A stretch of DNA of 42,221 bases from a virus: IMG/VR virus record IMGVR_UViG_3300030098_001704, positions 1 to 42,221 of that record. The stretch is one strand, 5' to 3'. The first letter of the stretch is position 1. Each line of letters opens with the position of its first letter. Below the pieces are notes generated by a model. It saw only the letters and a program-made list of their open reading frames with translations, was not told the origin of the DNA and did no database searches. The position numbers and the translations under genes are program-made. This document shows positions 11,683 to 38,696 of this stretch, in pieces.

Positions 11683-11757
11683 TTATATTAGTTTTAATAA
11701 ATGTACTCCAATAATAAATAAGTTAACTGCACCATAAACAATTAAAACTGTAGTCAT
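11683..11757 (-). CDS. 24-residue single-pass membrane microprotein
   Basis: ATG 11757 overlaps the stop of the SleB-type hydrolase gene by four bases (ATGA), with AGGAG five to six bases upstream. The 24 residues are almost wholly hydrophobic (Val/Ile/Leu/Gly), enough for one membrane helix. The link to a cell wall hydrolase gene suggests a small holin- or export-like helper, but this is inference. Very short reading frames can arise by chance; the overlap plus ribosome-binding site is the evidence. Confidence 0.45.
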   Translation of the reverse strand: MTTVLIVYGAVNLFIIGVHLLKLI

Positions 11758-12164
11758 ACCTTTCTCCTATAAAATATATGTTTCCCTATTTTTACTACCT
11801 TTTTAAAAAATGTTATCCATTTAGGTTTTACATCATCTGAATGATAATGTGTAGCTCCTTCTGTAATATTAATATTATTATTAATCATGTAATTTGCAAC
11901 CCATCGTGCCGTATCCCAAGGTTCTTTTTCAACAGGGTTATCTGATTTCCCATCACAATAAAAACTAAATTGGCACATGTTTCTTATAGGTAATCTTTTA
12001 CCTGTTTTATACCGGGGTCCTTGTTTAACTACACCGCAAATTGTATTAGGAAACTTTGGACTGTTAACCCTGTTTAGTATAACAGAAGCTACAGCTAATT
12101 GTCCAACGATAGGCTCACCCCTCGCTTCAAAATAAATAGCTATAGCTAGACATTCCCCAAACAT
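11754..12164 (-). CDS. SleB-type cell wall hydrolase (Hydrolase_2)
   Basis: 136 residues. The N-terminus CLAIAIYFEARGEP carries the Glu (residue 13) expected to be catalytic, followed by AVASVILNRV, a central CQFSFYCDG, and TEGATHYHSDDVKPKW near the C-terminus. This is the core of SleB/CwlJ-type peptidoglycan hydrolases, which act as lytic transglycosylases. No signal peptide is seen. It lies two bases downstream of the Na/Pi transporter-like gene in the leftward operon, away from the GH24 lysozyme in the late block, so the phage has two wall-degrading enzymes on different transcripts. Confidence 0.85.
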   Translation of the reverse strand: MFGECLAIAIYFEARGEPIVGQLAVASVILNRVNSPKFPNTICGVVKQGPRYKTGKRLPIRNMCQFSFYCDGKSDNPVEKEPWDTARWVANYMINNNINITEGATHYHSDDVKPKWITFFKKVVKIGKHIFYRRKV

Positions 12165-12166
12165 AA

Positions 12167-12619
12167 TTAAAACCTCCCAATAAACCTAGCAATATGATTT
12201 ACCCACGGCAATAAAGCAATAGCCATTAAAAGGTTAGCTCCGGTATGTGCCATTGCTATCCTTAGTGTATCCCCTTTAGGCATCCCATCAGATACTAGTA
12301 ACCCTGCTAGCCAGATAGTGCCTGTAGTCCCTATATTAGCCCCTAGAACGGCAGCAATAGCACTAGGCAGGGGTAGGAACCCACTTGCTACCATTGCTAT
12401 TATAGCAGTCGTACTAAGGGAACTAGACTGCCATAATAAAGTACAAACTATACCACCTAAGAACATCCAGTAGGGACTAGAGACAAACCATTCCAGATGT
12501 TCTACATTGCCCATAGCTTTCATACCCCCAGCAAACATCTTTAAACCAAAGTAGAAGACGACTAACCCTATTCCTACTTGTACTAAAGGTATCTCCCAAT
12601 ACTTTAACACTAACCGCAC
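12167..12619 (-). CDS. Half-size Na+/phosphate cotransporter-like membrane protein
   Basis: 150 residues, very hydrophobic, with about four membrane segments. It carries the hallmark QSSS motif of the Na/Pi cotransporter family (residues 64-67, in WQSSSLSTTA), followed by GANIGTT (93-99) and AMAHTGAN (122-129). Family members (NptA, YjbB, SLC34) contain two such QSSS repeats in inverted topology; only one is present. It would need to pair with itself or a host protein to form a full transporter. A phosphate-uptake auxiliary gene is the natural reading. ATG 12619 overlaps the ribonucleotide reductase stop by 10 bases. Confidence 0.78.
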   Translation of the reverse strand: MRLVLKYWEIPLVQVGIGLVVFYFGLKMFAGGMKAMGNVEHLEWFVSSPYWMFLGGIVCTLLWQSSSLSTTAIIAMVASGFLPLPSAIAAVLGANIGTTGTIWLAGLLVSDGMPKGDTLRIAMAHTGANLLMAIALLPWVNHIARFIGRF

Positions 12620-25332: not shown

Positions 25333-25552
25333 AAGCTACCTTTTTTCTAGGTGAAAGATAGGCTTTCCACTCCCATTTTTTAGAACTTGCTTTAATTTTA
25401 AAAGGGTTAATGTCACCAGAACATCTAATAAGACTTTTTTTCTGGTCAAAAGTATTTTCTCTTTTTTCTAAAACAACACCATTTAGAACTACTGCACCAT
25501 TTTTCTTCAATTGACGCAATTGTTGCCTCTCTCTACGGCCTAATCTAGCCAT
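25331..25552 (-). CDS. Small basic early protein (73 aa)
   Basis: 73 residues, Lys/Arg-rich at both ends (LGRRERQQLRQLKK at the N-terminus). AAAGAAAGG precedes ATG 25552, a promoter lies 65 bases upstream (25617-25645), and a terminator-like hairpin sits at its stop, so it appears to be a single-gene transcript. Nucleic acid binding is likely from the charge; the regulator of the nearby repeats is one possibility. No family recognised. Confidence 0.62.
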   Translation of the reverse strand: MARLGRRERQQLRQLKKNGAVVLNGVVLEKRENTFDQKKSLIRCSGDINPFKIKASSKKWEWKAYLSPRKKVA

Positions 25553-25677: not shown

Positions 25678-25711
25678 TATGAAAACCAAGGGTTTAATAG
25701 ATTATAACTAT
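25678..25711. repeat. 34-bp direct repeat, copy 1
   Basis: Matches copy 2 (25984-26017) at 32 of 34 positions. The core is GGGTTTAATAGATTATAAC. It lies between the 73-aa and 50-aa gene promoter regions. Confidence 0.8.
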
Positions 25712-25721
25712 ATAATTTATA

Positions 25722-25874
25722 CTAATTAAGTAACTTAAATAGTTTTAATAGTTGTTTATCTGTTGTAATTCGCTCTAATTCTTTTCCAAATCCTTCATTA
25801 TTTCTTTTTAATTCTGCTCTAATAAAATTAATAAAAATCTTTTTTCGTATGTTTTCTATCTGTTGTTTTTTCAT
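25722..25874 (-). CDS. Small basic protein (50 aa)
   Basis: 50 residues from ATG 25874, with AGGA about 11 bases upstream. Lys/Arg/Ile-rich and probably helical, ending LLKLFKLLN. Like the neighbouring 73-aa gene, it has a copy of the 34-bp repeat about 110 bases upstream. AT-rich sequence makes chance frames more likely to be Lys-rich, so confidence is moderate. Confidence 0.48.
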   Translation of the reverse strand: MKKQQIENIRKKIFINFIRAELKRNNEGFGKELERITTDKQLLKLFKLLN

Positions 25875-25983
25875 TTTGTAAAAATTCCTATTTTTGTTTT
25901 GTTATTGTATTAGACGGTTATAAAAAAAATTTCTTACAGTTTTAATAAAAAAAAATACACTGGTTTTTTTGATAAACAGAACC

Positions 25984-26017
25984 TATCAAAACCAGGGGTT
26001 TAATAGATTATAACTAT
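25984..26017. repeat. 34-bp direct repeat, copy 2
   Basis: Second copy, two mismatches from copy 1. Weaker relatives occur at 26212-26240 (keeping TTTAATAG and ACTAT) and 26381-26395 (GGGGTTATATAGATT, 13 of 15 matching). Confidence 0.8.
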
Positions 26018-26046
26018 GATTGATAATTATGATTAATGAAAGGTTA

Positions 26047-26156
26047 TGGCATGATTATTGCATGGGTAAAACTTGGCATGATAATTGCATAGGTGTATAG
26101 TTGGCATAGTTCTTGCATATCAATAACTTAGGGTAGTGGTTGGCATGGTTCTTGCA
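26047..26156 (+). promoter_or_regulatory. Four tandem sigma-54-like (-24/-12) elements
   Basis: Four sites read TGGCAT[G/A]-N4-TTGCA: 26047-26062, 26074-26089, 26102-26117 and 26141-26156, at intervals of 27, 28 and 39 bases. This matches the RpoN promoter consensus TGGCAYG-N4-TTGCW, including the GG and GC doublets at correct spacing, and all four point to the late genes. They could instead be binding sites for another regulator or origin iterons. RpoN use would need a host activator. Confidence 0.55.
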
Positions 26157-26282
26157 TAAGATGAACAGAAAGACGATGATAGTTTAGATCTATGAAGTGA
26201 TAGAGTTTGTCTATGACAGGATTTAATAGGTTTGTACTATGTCTAGATAGATTTTGTCTATGGTAGGGCATGATAGTCGAAA

Positions 26283-26340
26283 TCTATTGAGTAATAGACA
26301 GGGCCTATCAGGGGGTGCTGGCCCTCCGCTGCTTCTTTTT
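26283..26340 (+). terminator. Paired hairpins in the late leader, possible attenuator
   Basis: TCTATT-GAGT-AATAGA (26283-26298) is followed by AGGGCC...GGCCCT (26300-26325, 14-base loop) and a T-rich stretch (26333-26340). It lies downstream of the sigma-54-like sites and upstream of the sigma-70 promoter, so it would affect only transcripts starting in the array. Confidence 0.38.
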
Positions 26341-26393
26341 CAGGTAACAAAAATTTATCTCATAGAAATTCCATAGGTCGGGGGTTATATAGA

Positions 26394-26422
26394 TTGACTT
26401 AATCTATAAAATATGTTATAAT
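26394..26422 (+). promoter_or_regulatory. Sigma-70 promoter at the head of the late block
   Basis: TTGACT (26394-26399), 17-base spacer, TATAAT (26417-26422): 5/6 and 6/6. The start would fall near 26429, about 30 bases before ATG 26459. A degenerate copy of the 34-bp repeat core overlaps its upstream edge. Confidence 0.8.
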
Positions 26423-26458
26423 AACTATAGAATGTTTTAATAGAAAGGTATAATCATT

Positions 26459-26869
26459 ATGAGATTACTTAGTATTCTTATTATTCTTATTACTTCTTTA
26501 ACTTCTACATCTATTCAATCTAAACAGTTACATCATAATGTAACACAGTATATGTATACAGGAATAATTATAATGTCCTGTAATAATTTAAAATCTGTAC
26601 AGAAAGTTGCAGCGGCTGATAAAGTCTCCATACAACTTTCTAGAGATGTTTTACAGCAAGAAGCTTTAAAAGGTAACTGCGGTTTACATAGACCTCCACT
26701 ATTAGTTCAATTAGAAAAAAAAATAGAAAGTTATAAGGATTATGCTAACTCTTCAGTTAGTATATGGAAGTTAGCTTCTTCAAATATGTGGAGTATCTTT
26801 GCAGATAACAAAGTTTTAGAAAGCCCAATTAACCCTGTTCCAAAACAAACTAAAGGGGTAGAAGCATGA
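26459..26869 (+). CDS. Exported hypothetical protein (136 aa)
   Basis: 136 residues with a typical signal peptide (Arg2, then a Leu/Ile-rich core to about residue 15, and a Ser/Thr-rich stretch with a plausible cleavage near residue 21). Two cysteines follow (about residues 40 and 74). First gene of the late block, next to the promoter at 26394-26422. The stop overlaps the next gene (ATGA). No family recognised; an envelope-acting function such as superinfection exclusion is possible. Confidence 0.6.
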   Translation: MRLLSILIILITSLTSTSIQSKQLHHNVTQYMYTGIIIMSCNNLKSVQKVAAADKVSIQLSRDVLQQEALKGNCGLHRPPLLVQLEKKIESYKDYANSSVSIWKLASSNMWSIFADNKVLESPINPVPKQTKGVEA

Positions 26870-27669: not shown

Positions 27670-29217
27670 GTGTCTTCTTCTGAAATTAAACTGGCTGCTG
27701 AGAGTGACCTAGTTACCTTTATAAAACTAGTGTCACCTCAGACAGTATTAGGTTCTATACATACGGAGCTTTGCAGATGGTGGGTACGACAGGAAGCAAA
27801 GTCCCACCAGCTTGTCTTACTCCCTAGAGATCACCAGAAGTCCAGGATGATCGCATACCGGGTTGCATGGCATTTAACTAACCATCCTGACCATCGTGTA
27901 CTTTATATTTCGAGTACATCTAATCTAGCAGAAAAACAATTAAAGTTTATAAAAGATATCCTTACCTCTAAGATTTACAGAAGGTACTGGCCTGATATGG
28001 TCTTACCCGAAGAAGGTAAAAGGGCTAAGTGGACAAACACAGAAATAGAACTGGACCACCCACTCCGGGCCATTGAAGGTGTACGTGACCCTTCAGTTTT
28101 TACAGCAGGGTTAACAACAAGTATCACTGGACTCCATTGTGATATAGCCGTACTCGATGATGTTGTTGTTATGGAAAATGCTTACACTGCTGAAGGACGC
28201 AACAAAGTTATCAGCCAATATTCGTTATTGTCTTCCATTGAAGGTGGGGAAGCACAAGAATGGATTGTCGGTACACGTTACCACCCTAAAGATTTATATA
28301 ATAGCTTAATCGAAATGCAGGAAGAAGTATACGATAAAGAAGGGAATATTATAGAATACGAAGCTGTTTATGAAAAGTTTGAAAGGCAAACAGAAAATAG
28401 GGGGGATGGGACAGGGGAATTTCTGTGGCCTAGACAACAACGTAACGATGGTAAATGGTTTGGGTTTGATGCAAAGATACTGGCTAAGAAACGTGCCAAG
28501 TATTTAGATAAAGTACAATTCCAGGCACAGTACTATAACAATCCTAATTCTTTAGATGGGTCAAGGATTAATTATGATTTATTCCAGTACTACGATAAAA
28601 AATACTTGACAAGTAGGGGTGGAATGTGGTATCATAAAGATAAGAGGTTAAATGTGTTTGCTGCGGTGGATTTTGCATATTCACTAAAGAAACGCTCAGA
28701 CTACACAGCAATAGTAGTTATCGGTGTTAATGCAGATGGTAACTATTATGTTTTGGCTATCGAGAGATTTCAAACTGAAAAGATATCAGAATACTTTGAA
28801 CACATCCTTAGACTACATCAGTATTGGGGATTTAGAAAATTAAGGGCAGAGATAACAGCAGCACAAAAGGCAATAGTACAAGAATTAAAAGATTCTTATA
28901 TACGGCCTTATGGTCTTGCTTTATCTATTGATGAGCATAACCCTACAAGACATTCAGGTTCTAAAGAAGAAAGGATTAGTGCTATTCTTGATCCGAGATA
29001 CGAAAACTTATCGATGTGGCATTACCAAGGGGGTAACTGCCAGTTGTTAGAAGATGAGTTAATACAGGTACATCCTTCTCATGATGATATAAAAGATGCT
29101 TTAGCTTCTGCGGTGGAAATCGCAAAGATACCTACAGCATCAGGTGTATTATCCAGACAAGGAAATAATATTGTTTATCATTCTAGATTTGGAGGGGTGG
29201 CTTCAAGATATGGCTAG
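27670..29217 (+). CDS. terL: Terminase large subunit
   Basis: 515 residues, start GTG 27670 directly after the preceding gene. The ATPase domain has a Walker A-like LPRDHQKSR (51-59), a variant seen in T7-type terminases, and Walker B VLDD (161-164). The C-terminal RNase H-type nuclease shows AAVDFAYS followed by acidic residues near EITAAQ and HDDIKDA. It pumps DNA into the capsid and cuts concatemers. The fold is clear; packaging mode (direct terminal repeats or headful) cannot be deduced here. The end overlaps the next gene by 8 bases. Confidence 0.93.
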   Translation: MSSSEIKLAAESDLVTFIKLVSPQTVLGSIHTELCRWWVRQEAKSHQLVLLPRDHQKSRMIAYRVAWHLTNHPDHRVLYISSTSNLAEKQLKFIKDILTSKIYRRYWPDMVLPEEGKRAKWTNTEIELDHPLRAIEGVRDPSVFTAGLTTSITGLHCDIAVLDDVVVMENAYTAEGRNKVISQYSLLSSIEGGEAQEWIVGTRYHPKDLYNSLIEMQEEVYDKEGNIIEYEAVYEKFERQTENRGDGTGEFLWPRQQRNDGKWFGFDAKILAKKRAKYLDKVQFQAQYYNNPNSLDGSRINYDLFQYYDKKYLTSRGGMWYHKDKRLNVFAAVDFAYSLKKRSDYTAIVVIGVNADGNYYVLAIERFQTEKISEYFEHILRLHQYWGFRKLRAEITAAQKAIVQELKDSYIRPYGLALSIDEHNPTRHSGSKEERISAILDPRYENLSMWHYQGGNCQLLEDELIQVHPSHDDIKDALASAVEIAKIPTASGVLSRQGNNIVYHSRFGGVASRYG

Positions 29218-37496: not shown

Positions 37497-38273
37497 ATGC
37501 CATTTTTAGGAGTACAACCATCTAGAGGTTTAGTCGGTACGGCTGGTATCGATGCAGATGCCATTACAGCGGCTAAAATTGCTGACGATCAAATTAACAG
37601 TGAGCATTATGTTGCCGCTTCGATTGATAATGAGCATTTAGCTGACGATGCTGTAGGAGTAGCCGAGTTAAGTGCTACAGGTACAGCTTCAAGCTCAACC
37701 TTTTTAAGAGGAGATAACTCTTGGGCTGCTGCTGGAGGTGGAGCATGGACGTTAGTGGACATGACTAATGTTACATCAGCTACTTCAGCCGTAACCGTTA
37801 CAGGCTTAGATAATTCCACATATAATACTTATTGTATAACAATCGCTAATCTCGTTCCCGAAACTGACAATCGTGGACTTAGAATGAGGTTGGGCGACAG
37901 TGGTGGGTTAAAAACAGGAGCCTCAGACTATGCTTGGGTACATTCAAATATTGATCAGGCAGGTAATGAATCAAACATAAGTGATAGTTCAGATAGTTTT
38001 GTGCCAATCGTGAATACTACGGATTGGGTAGGATCATCTACAGGTGAGGGATACTCGGCTGTGATTTATCTGCATATTTCTACTAGCAGTGGGCCAGTAG
38101 ACCCGATGTTTCACGGTACGCATTGTGCAAAAGATCAGTCACGAGCGCATCATGCTGGCTGGCTGTCTGGCTCTACAGTTGGAATGTATACGATAACGCA
38201 ATTTAGTATATATGCTAGCTCTGGAAATATAGACAATGGTCGTGTTTCGACTTACGGAATCAAACATACATAG
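37497..38273 (+). CDS. Tail fibre protein, cassette 2
   Basis: 258 residues, paralogous to 36391-37182: begins MPFLGVQPS, followed by an Asp/Ala/Ile stem (ADAITAAKIADDQI, ADDAVGVAELS), SSTFLRGDNSWAAAGGG as a hinge, and a distinct C-terminal beta domain. Preceded by AAGGAG. With the chaperone gene after it, this forms a second tandem cassette. Probably gives the phage a second receptor specificity or a mixed fibre. Confidence 0.75.
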   Translation: MPFLGVQPSRGLVGTAGIDADAITAAKIADDQINSEHYVAASIDNEHLADDAVGVAELSATGTASSSTFLRGDNSWAAAGGGAWTLVDMTNVTSATSAVTVTGLDNSTYNTYCITIANLVPETDNRGLRMRLGDSGGLKTGASDYAWVHSNIDQAGNESNISDSSDSFVPIVNTTDWVGSSTGEGYSAVIYLHISTSSGPVDPMFHGTHCAKDQSRAHHAGWLSGSTVGMYTITQFSIYASSGNIDNGRVSTYGIKHT

Positions 38274-38282
38274 GTGAAAAAT

Positions 38283-38696
38283 ATGGCGTGGATAACGGTC
38301 AACAAAGTCAATTCAGATAATCAGATTACCAGTTATAATATCTTTGATGCTGAATCAGATGCCAATGCTAAAGTTGTAGAACTTACAGAATTAGGATTGA
38401 GTAATGTATATGCTGTAGAGAAACCTGATGCAGATATACAGCATCTTATTCCTAATGTTTCTAATAAGACTGTTGCTATTAATACAAGTGCTAAGACAGC
38501 AGAAGAAACAGAACAGAAAAAACAAAAATTACGTTCTATTAGATCCCCCTTAATAAAAGAAGCAGACCATACAATTTGGACATTAGAAGATGCTGGCTCC
38601 GATACTTCAGCATGGAAGACTTATCGCCAAAAGCTAAGAGATATAACTAAAGACGCTGATCTCGATAACCCAACATGGCCTGATAAACCTAGTTAA
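38283..38696 (+). CDS. Tail fibre assembly chaperone-like protein, cassette 2
   Basis: 137 residues from ATG 38283 with AGGTG upstream; a GTG three codons earlier is less likely. The N-terminal half (about 1-75) is a small alpha/beta domain absent from the 96-residue relative; the C-terminal half keeps the chaperone pattern (RSPLIKEADHTIW, YRQKLRDI, WPDKPS). It follows its fibre gene closely. Confidence 0.75.
   Translation: MAWITVNKVNSDNQITSYNIFDAESDANAKVVELTELGLSNVYAVEKPDADIQHLIPNVSNKTVAINTSAKTAEETEQKKQKLRSIRSPLIKEADHTIWTLEDAGSDTSAWKTYRQKLRDITKDADLDNPTWPDKPS

Follow-up and report, generated by a model that had tools for sequence, protein, structure and literature searches.

Sigma-54-type boxes clustered at the early/late operon border of a marine podovirus, with similar arrays in other phages

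The window, i.e., the whole stretch of 42,221 nucleotides analyzed here, is the genome of a podovirus related to the Zobellviridae/Cobavirinae, a marine virus of bacteria. Its large terminase subunit (TerL) is 66% identical to that of Siovirus and 56% identical to those of the Methylophilales phages MEP401/402. The contig ends overlap by 101 nt, so the genome is essentially complete. Replication genes are read leftward from position 25552, and packaging and structural genes are read rightward from position 26459. The control region between the two operons contains an array of four repeated boxes, present once in the genome, and the other elements listed in Table 1. The boxes point right, at the first late ORF, which begins 302 nt downstream of the array; the preliminary description was thus right in placing the array 5′ of the packaging and structural operon.

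Table 1. Features of the control region and neighboring late genes (window coordinates).
Feature	Position	Strand	Details
Block with array, almost unchanged in sister phage L002	25984..26158		windows with at most one difference in 156 nt
Sigma-54 box 1 (candidate)	26047..26062	+	TGGCATGATTATTGCA; exact match; 20.6 bits; outscores 41 of the 42 E. coli sites; GG at 26048-26049, GC at 26060-26061
Sigma-54 box 2 (candidate)	26074..26089	+	TGGCATGATAATTGCA; exact match; 20.9 bits
Sigma-54 box 3 (candidate)	26102..26117	+	TGGCATAGTTCTTGCA; exact match; 19.1 bits
Sigma-54 box 4 (candidate)	26141..26156	+	TGGCATGGTTCTTGCA; exact match; 19.7 bits
Probable right boundary of direct terminal repeat	26311..26372	+	G-run, then AAAATTTATCTCATAGAAATTCC
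Sigma-70 type promoter	26394..26422	+	TTGACT-N17-TATAAT; 11 of 12 consensus letters, TG before the −10
First ORF of the rightward late operon	26459..26869	+	136 aa, no family
Terminase large subunit, anchor for locus comparison	27670..29217	+	phrog_38, E 1.4e-90

Two elements separate the boxes from the late genes, as follows. A G-run and a AAAATTTATCTCATAGAAATT element match, by eye, the annotated edges of the direct terminal repeats (DTRs) of phages ICBM1 and ICBM2, and the alignment with these two phages makes this segment the probable right boundary of the DTR of the source phage. Between it and the late operon, directly 5′ of the latter, is the sigma-70 type promoter. By eye, counterparts of this promoter occupy the same place in L241, L247, ICBM1/2, CRP-4/5, MEP401/402, and T5S1; that is, they occur in relatives with an array and in relatives without one. 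Inside the probable terminal repeat, the segment 26160-26310 holds many short GATAG/CTATG repeats, and at the matching position L241 has three CTACAGAGTTTCTGTGTAGT-like repeats.

To the left of the array, an A/T-rich hairpin read by eye at 25960-25994 (CTGGTTTT...AAAACCAG) is followed by a T-run on the minus strand. It is possibly a leftward terminator between the early genes and the array; the terminator scan did not flag it. The exact 12-mer GATTATAACTAT occurs at 25700 and again at 26006 within a longer, imperfect repeat (AAACCA-GGGTTTAATAGATTATAACTAT), possibly an early promoter or operator pair. Farther away, in the replication operon, a gene for a Na+/Pi cotransporter-like protein (12167-12619, minus strand) and a cell-wall-hydrolase gene (11754-12164, minus strand) adjoin the ribonucleotide reductase gene.

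A pattern search of the whole window for TGGCAT[G/A]-N4-TTGCA finds four exact plus-strand matches, with start-to-start distances of 27, 28, and 39 nt, exactly as first described. No fifth match with fewer than two mismatches is present anywhere else in the window. The invariant GG and GC doublets, with exactly 10 nt between them, are found in all four boxes. The boxes follow the extended consensus YTGGCAYR-N4-TTGCW at the level of real sites, the first position of box 1 being A rather than Y. The N4 cores of boxes 1 to 4 are ATTA, ATAA, GTTC, and GTTC, and the DNA between the boxes has no likeness from spacer to spacer. The earlier statement that the N4 differs between pairs therefore stands for the three different cores and the unlike spacers, but not for boxes 3 and 4, which share one core. 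Simple tandem duplication is ruled out for the window because the spacers differ and relatives retain the boxes alone. A reading of box 2 as the −35 element of a sigma-70 promoter (TTGGCA-N17-TATAGT) was rejected as not general, since box spacings vary widely.

The boxes were scored with a sigma-54 matrix made from 42 intergenic sense sites that ChIP-seq had located in E. coli (PMC4591121). By this matrix, the scan that the preliminary description had proposed, the boxes are the top four 17-mers of the genome, at 19.1-20.9 bits, and the next 17-mer scores 13.3. Each box outscores 41 of the 42 mapped sites, and the expected number of matches at this level is 0.017 per simulated genome. Since the matrix derives from bound sites, it is an independent, experimentally anchored check of the sigma-54 reading. 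A chance origin of the boxes is ruled out by the exact matches, the matrix scores, and the control scans given below. The same scans, the matrix, and the relatives uphold the fit to the RpoN −24/−12 consensus at both doublets and at exact spacing, and from their sequence the four boxes are very probably sigma-54 sites.

The array is kept in the sister phage L002 (TerL 95% identical) with a single change, located in a spacer. To the right of 26158, L002 differs from the window at about one in six positions. The conservation of the block around the array is suggestive only, because segments of 156 nt that are this similar make up 4.4% of the window/L002 genome pair. L247 (TerL 76%) has five boxes and L241 (TerL 67%) has four, all forward and with unrelated spacers. 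The preliminary description had named, as the outcome adverse to sigma-54, relatives that keep the repeats and lose the GG/GC doublets; the retained boxes and diverged spacers of L241 and L247 favor sigma-54 instead. In L296 (TerL 46.5%), three boxes lie on the opposite strand, and the array faces away from the late genes.

Most of the cultured or complete relatives examined are without a strict sigma-54 box, and none was found in the complete Siovirus, Veravirus, MEP, and several other Zobellviridae genomes examined. No array is present in a cultured Vibrio phage whose terminase is related, and when arrays were compared with cultured phages by BLAST, most matches were single boxes or weak. 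On the TerL tree, the presence of the array amounts to four label changes, which indicates repeated gain or loss, although the count may be inflated because L003 and L004, scored as lacking the array, end before the array region.

The Cobavirinae (Siovirus, Veravirus; Lentibacter phages ICBM1 and ICBM2) have the same genome plan as the window, and the ICBM1/ICBM2 control region resembles that of the window in its G-run/terminal-repeat boundary element and its sigma-70 late promoter. In contrast to the window, the cultured members examined carry no strict sigma-54 box. CW02 and KZY1, Zobellviridae phages and thus of the same family as the window, have no single-subunit RNA polymerase annotated in their records. 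They encode a sigma factor of their own, whereas nothing matching the KZY1 sigma factor was found in the window, which has host-type sigma-54 sites. KZY1 (PQ867851) also has two outward-facing single sigma-54 boxes, at 2453 and 2675, at its early/late border. The L296 record, which carries an array, encodes a weak homologue of the KZY1 sigma factor at 38029-38445 on the minus strand (25% identity, E 1.6e-8).

Arrays of this kind extend far beyond these relatives. A scan of IMG/VR for pairs of TGGCAN6TTGC, made with no TerL input, gave at least 120 matches. Triple arrays with the exact N4 were found at no fewer than 120 IMG/VR loci, and the control patterns gave one locus each when reversed, with scrambled doublets, or with N5, and none with N3. 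Among the matches listed, viral clusters contain 3 to 10 boxes, adjacent ones mostly 25-60 nt apart; the spacings have a main peak at 25-29 nt and others near 36-38, 41-43, and 46-47 nt. The combination Y6R7, which the pattern did not impose, occurs in 314 of 352 clustered boxes among the matches listed, compared with 25% by chance. In this Y6R7 subset, position 16 is A or T in ~91% of boxes and position 0 is T or C in ~86%, and the flanks follow tTGGCAYGrTTcTTGCW. The TerL proteins of array-bearing loci, again among the matches listed, form 20 groups at 35% identity, and the G+C content of these records ranges from about 0.31 to 0.65. Such commonness casts doubt on the earlier remark that phages rarely rely on sigma-54.

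Bacterial and archaeal genomes (257 Gb) yielded 18 triple-array stretches, about ten of which are plain tandem duplications. Among the non-duplication matches, the array of L221 adjoins a terminase gene. L231, a Methylococcaceae MAG, has six diverged boxes beside a phage-type integrase and a D5-type helicase; this array belongs to a mobile element and not to a terminase operon.

The placement of the arrays is distinctive. Among the matches listed, arrays lie at 29 divergent, 1 convergent, and 2 same-direction operon borders, compared with 29 divergent, 8 convergent, and 139 same-direction control gaps in the same loci. A terL homologue was detected at 100 of the listed loci. Of the 466 boxes at these loci, 458 are no more than 5 kb from terL on its 5′ side, and terL itself contains none. 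The terL queries were drawn from genes near arrays, so the array-terL distance may be biased, but the 5′ side is not. Among the matches listed, 150 boxes point toward terL and 308 point away. Frequent neighbors, in the same set, are TerL, endolysin, portal (phrog_332, the PHROG of the window's portal), and a basic protein of 130 aa with no family, for which no cultured relative was found. The common denominator of the arrays is the control region between divergent operons, and not a late promoter specifically. The boxes of one array are mostly co-directional; across phages either direction is found, and some arrays use both strands. In L116, L130, L139, L153, L180, L254, L262, and L272, boxes on the two strands are interleaved in a unit of ~46-47 nt, with adjacent convergent pairs. 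These interleaved arrays are unexplained if every box is a simple promoter.

No form of bacterial transcription is gated more tightly than that by sigma-54, which does not fire in the absence of an activating ATPase. Neither RpoN nor a sigma-54 activator domain was found in the window or in 41 array-bearing virus records, many of them fragments. This implies a host RpoN and a host activator as readers of the boxes. The single-subunit RNA polymerase family PF00940 has no match in the window, and the control genomes gave none either. No obvious upstream activator or IHF site appeared when the sequence was read by eye. In the Gemmobacter family (Rhodobacteraceae), the rpoN gene scores above the cut-off in 33 of the 101 genomes sampled; the host of the source phage need not carry it. 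All eight genomes with array matches have rpoN, which carries little weight because 111 of 120 sampled genomes of the wider phylum (93%) have it as well. Host rpoN presence was therefore dropped as uninformative evidence for reading of the boxes.

We propose that the boxes are RpoN −24/−12 elements that recruit host sigma-54 RNA polymerase to the border of the leftward early and rightward late operons. This explanation as a whole has a probability of roughly 0.65, judged from the sequence comparisons above; the consensus, the exact spacing, the conservation, and the position at divergent borders support it. The binding of sigma-54 polymerase and its opening by a host ATPase are the steps that we infer. 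The cluster would be a set of redundant promoters pointing right, each closed until opened by a host enhancer-binding ATPase, with transcription expected to start ~12 nt after each GC; the boxes are probably active promoters. With a distance of 27 nt between them, neighboring boxes cannot all be occupied by polymerase simultaneously. Since spacings of 27-28 nt are shorter than one polymerase footprint, clustering would make it more likely that a site is occupied, rather than give four firings at once, and its reason is more probably redundancy or occupancy.

Transcripts from the boxes may run through the probable terminal repeat, enter the late operon, and supplement the sigma-70 promoter. If the terminal repeat is correctly placed, one end of the linear virion DNA carries the array and the other the late genes. 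It follows that the array could reach the late genes only after circularization or concatemer formation. That the boxes drive the late operon is plausible, and we give it about even odds. The presence of a strong sigma-70 promoter between the array and the late genes, which it serves, is a point against this role, since late transcription need not depend on sigma-54. Further points against it are the orientation in L296, the excess of boxes pointing away from terL, and a weak terminator-like hairpin in between. The original proposal of sigma-54 late promoters is thus supported in part: strongly for the sigma-54 identity, and as a plausible role for control of the late genes.

Sigma-54 polymerase can also bind without transcribing. 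The bound but silent complex might then separate the divergent operons, acting as a roadblock or insulator, or might deplete the sigma-54 available to host genes by titration. In E. coli, some bound sites may never yield productive transcription (PMC4591121), and the variable direction of the boxes between phages, sometimes with both strands interleaved, would suit such a role, as would a late operon with its own sigma-70 promoter. Yet a sponge could sit anywhere, and arrays concentrate at divergent borders; their boxes mostly share one direction, and closely packed boxes that cannot all be filled are a poor design for titration. We regard a silent complex as unlikely.

Lower in probability is the possibility that the sigma-54 promoters yield a short RNA of the terminal-repeat region, for processing, regulation, or replication priming, that ends before the late genes. 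The terminator-like hairpin and T-run downstream of the array, better formed in L002, could end such an RNA. The segment 26167-26345 folds better than its shuffles (z −3.1; L002 z −2.0; L241 z −2.9), but the value for L247 is −1.3, the structures are not the same from phage to phage, and folding here is inflated by abundant short inverted repeats. The window hairpin on its own folds no better than shuffles, and there is no Rfam match. A conserved RNA fold at 26167-26345 was rejected as inconsistent between relatives.

It is improbable that the boxes serve some other, possibly phage-encoded, protein as operators or packaging sites and only resemble sigma-54 sites. The arrays do adjoin the terminase operon and, in the clade of the window, a probable genome end as well. 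However, small terminases and repressors vary, and a single motif with the sigma-54 consensus is found in 20 TerL groups and stays constant over G+C contents of ~0.31 to 0.65. The motif requires the exact N4 and is directional. Operators of a dimeric repressor, which the preliminary description had offered as an alternative, also fit poorly: there are no dyad half sites, and no inverted repeats were found in 25700-26500. Replication-origin iterons, the other alternative offered there, are very improbable: the boxes are direct repeats in an A+T-rich intergenic region, but their spacing is irregular (27/28/39), their cores vary, relatives have them on either strand, the consensus is fixed across unrelated phages, and no initiator-type gene was recognized among the tested proteins.

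Tandem repeats ahead of phage operons are familiar from T7-type promoters, which are read by the phage RNA polymerase. The proposed sigma-54 promoters would share this repeated arrangement and differ in their reader, host sigma-54. Bacterial RpoN promoters, such as E. coli pspG (TTGGCATGATTCTTGTA) and zraS (ATGGCATGATTTCTGCT) (PMC4591121), have the same consensus, the same GG-N10-GC geometry, and a single directional motif, and the scores of the window boxes fall in the highest part of the range for such real sites. Unlike these promoters, the phage boxes form clusters of 3 to 10 at divergent operon borders. A search of open-access papers turned up no description of clustered sigma-54 promoters in phages. 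While sigma-54 promoters are already known, their clustered use by phages looks new.

That many phages with no relation to one another have box clusters at this type of border suggests that phages commonly use the host sigma-54 switch. It is tempting to propose, at somewhat less than even odds, that numerous unrelated phages lacking their own polymerase connect their main divergent-operon border to host sigma-54 through near-optimal RpoN clusters. If this is a general strategy, the timing of infection would depend on a host enhancer-binding ATPase and so be coupled to the host's activators, whether for nitrogen, stress, motility, or other states. Host rpoN would then be a direct genetic requirement, beyond receptor regulation. 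Phage resistance based on rpoN has been ascribed to receptors, glutamine supply, or RpoS (PMC6188897, PMC8744999); phage sigma-54 promoters would be an additional, testable cause. The array could also be used as a sequence marker to sort uncultured phages by their mode of transcription.

Single boxes are seen in a cultured phage of another type. The T5-like Vibrio phage Thalassa (MG649967) has strict single boxes at 501 and 3562, both non-coding and near the left end, one of them ~395 nt 5′ of a gene annotated A2. BLAST matches suggest that the Thalassa box is common to related Vibrio phages.
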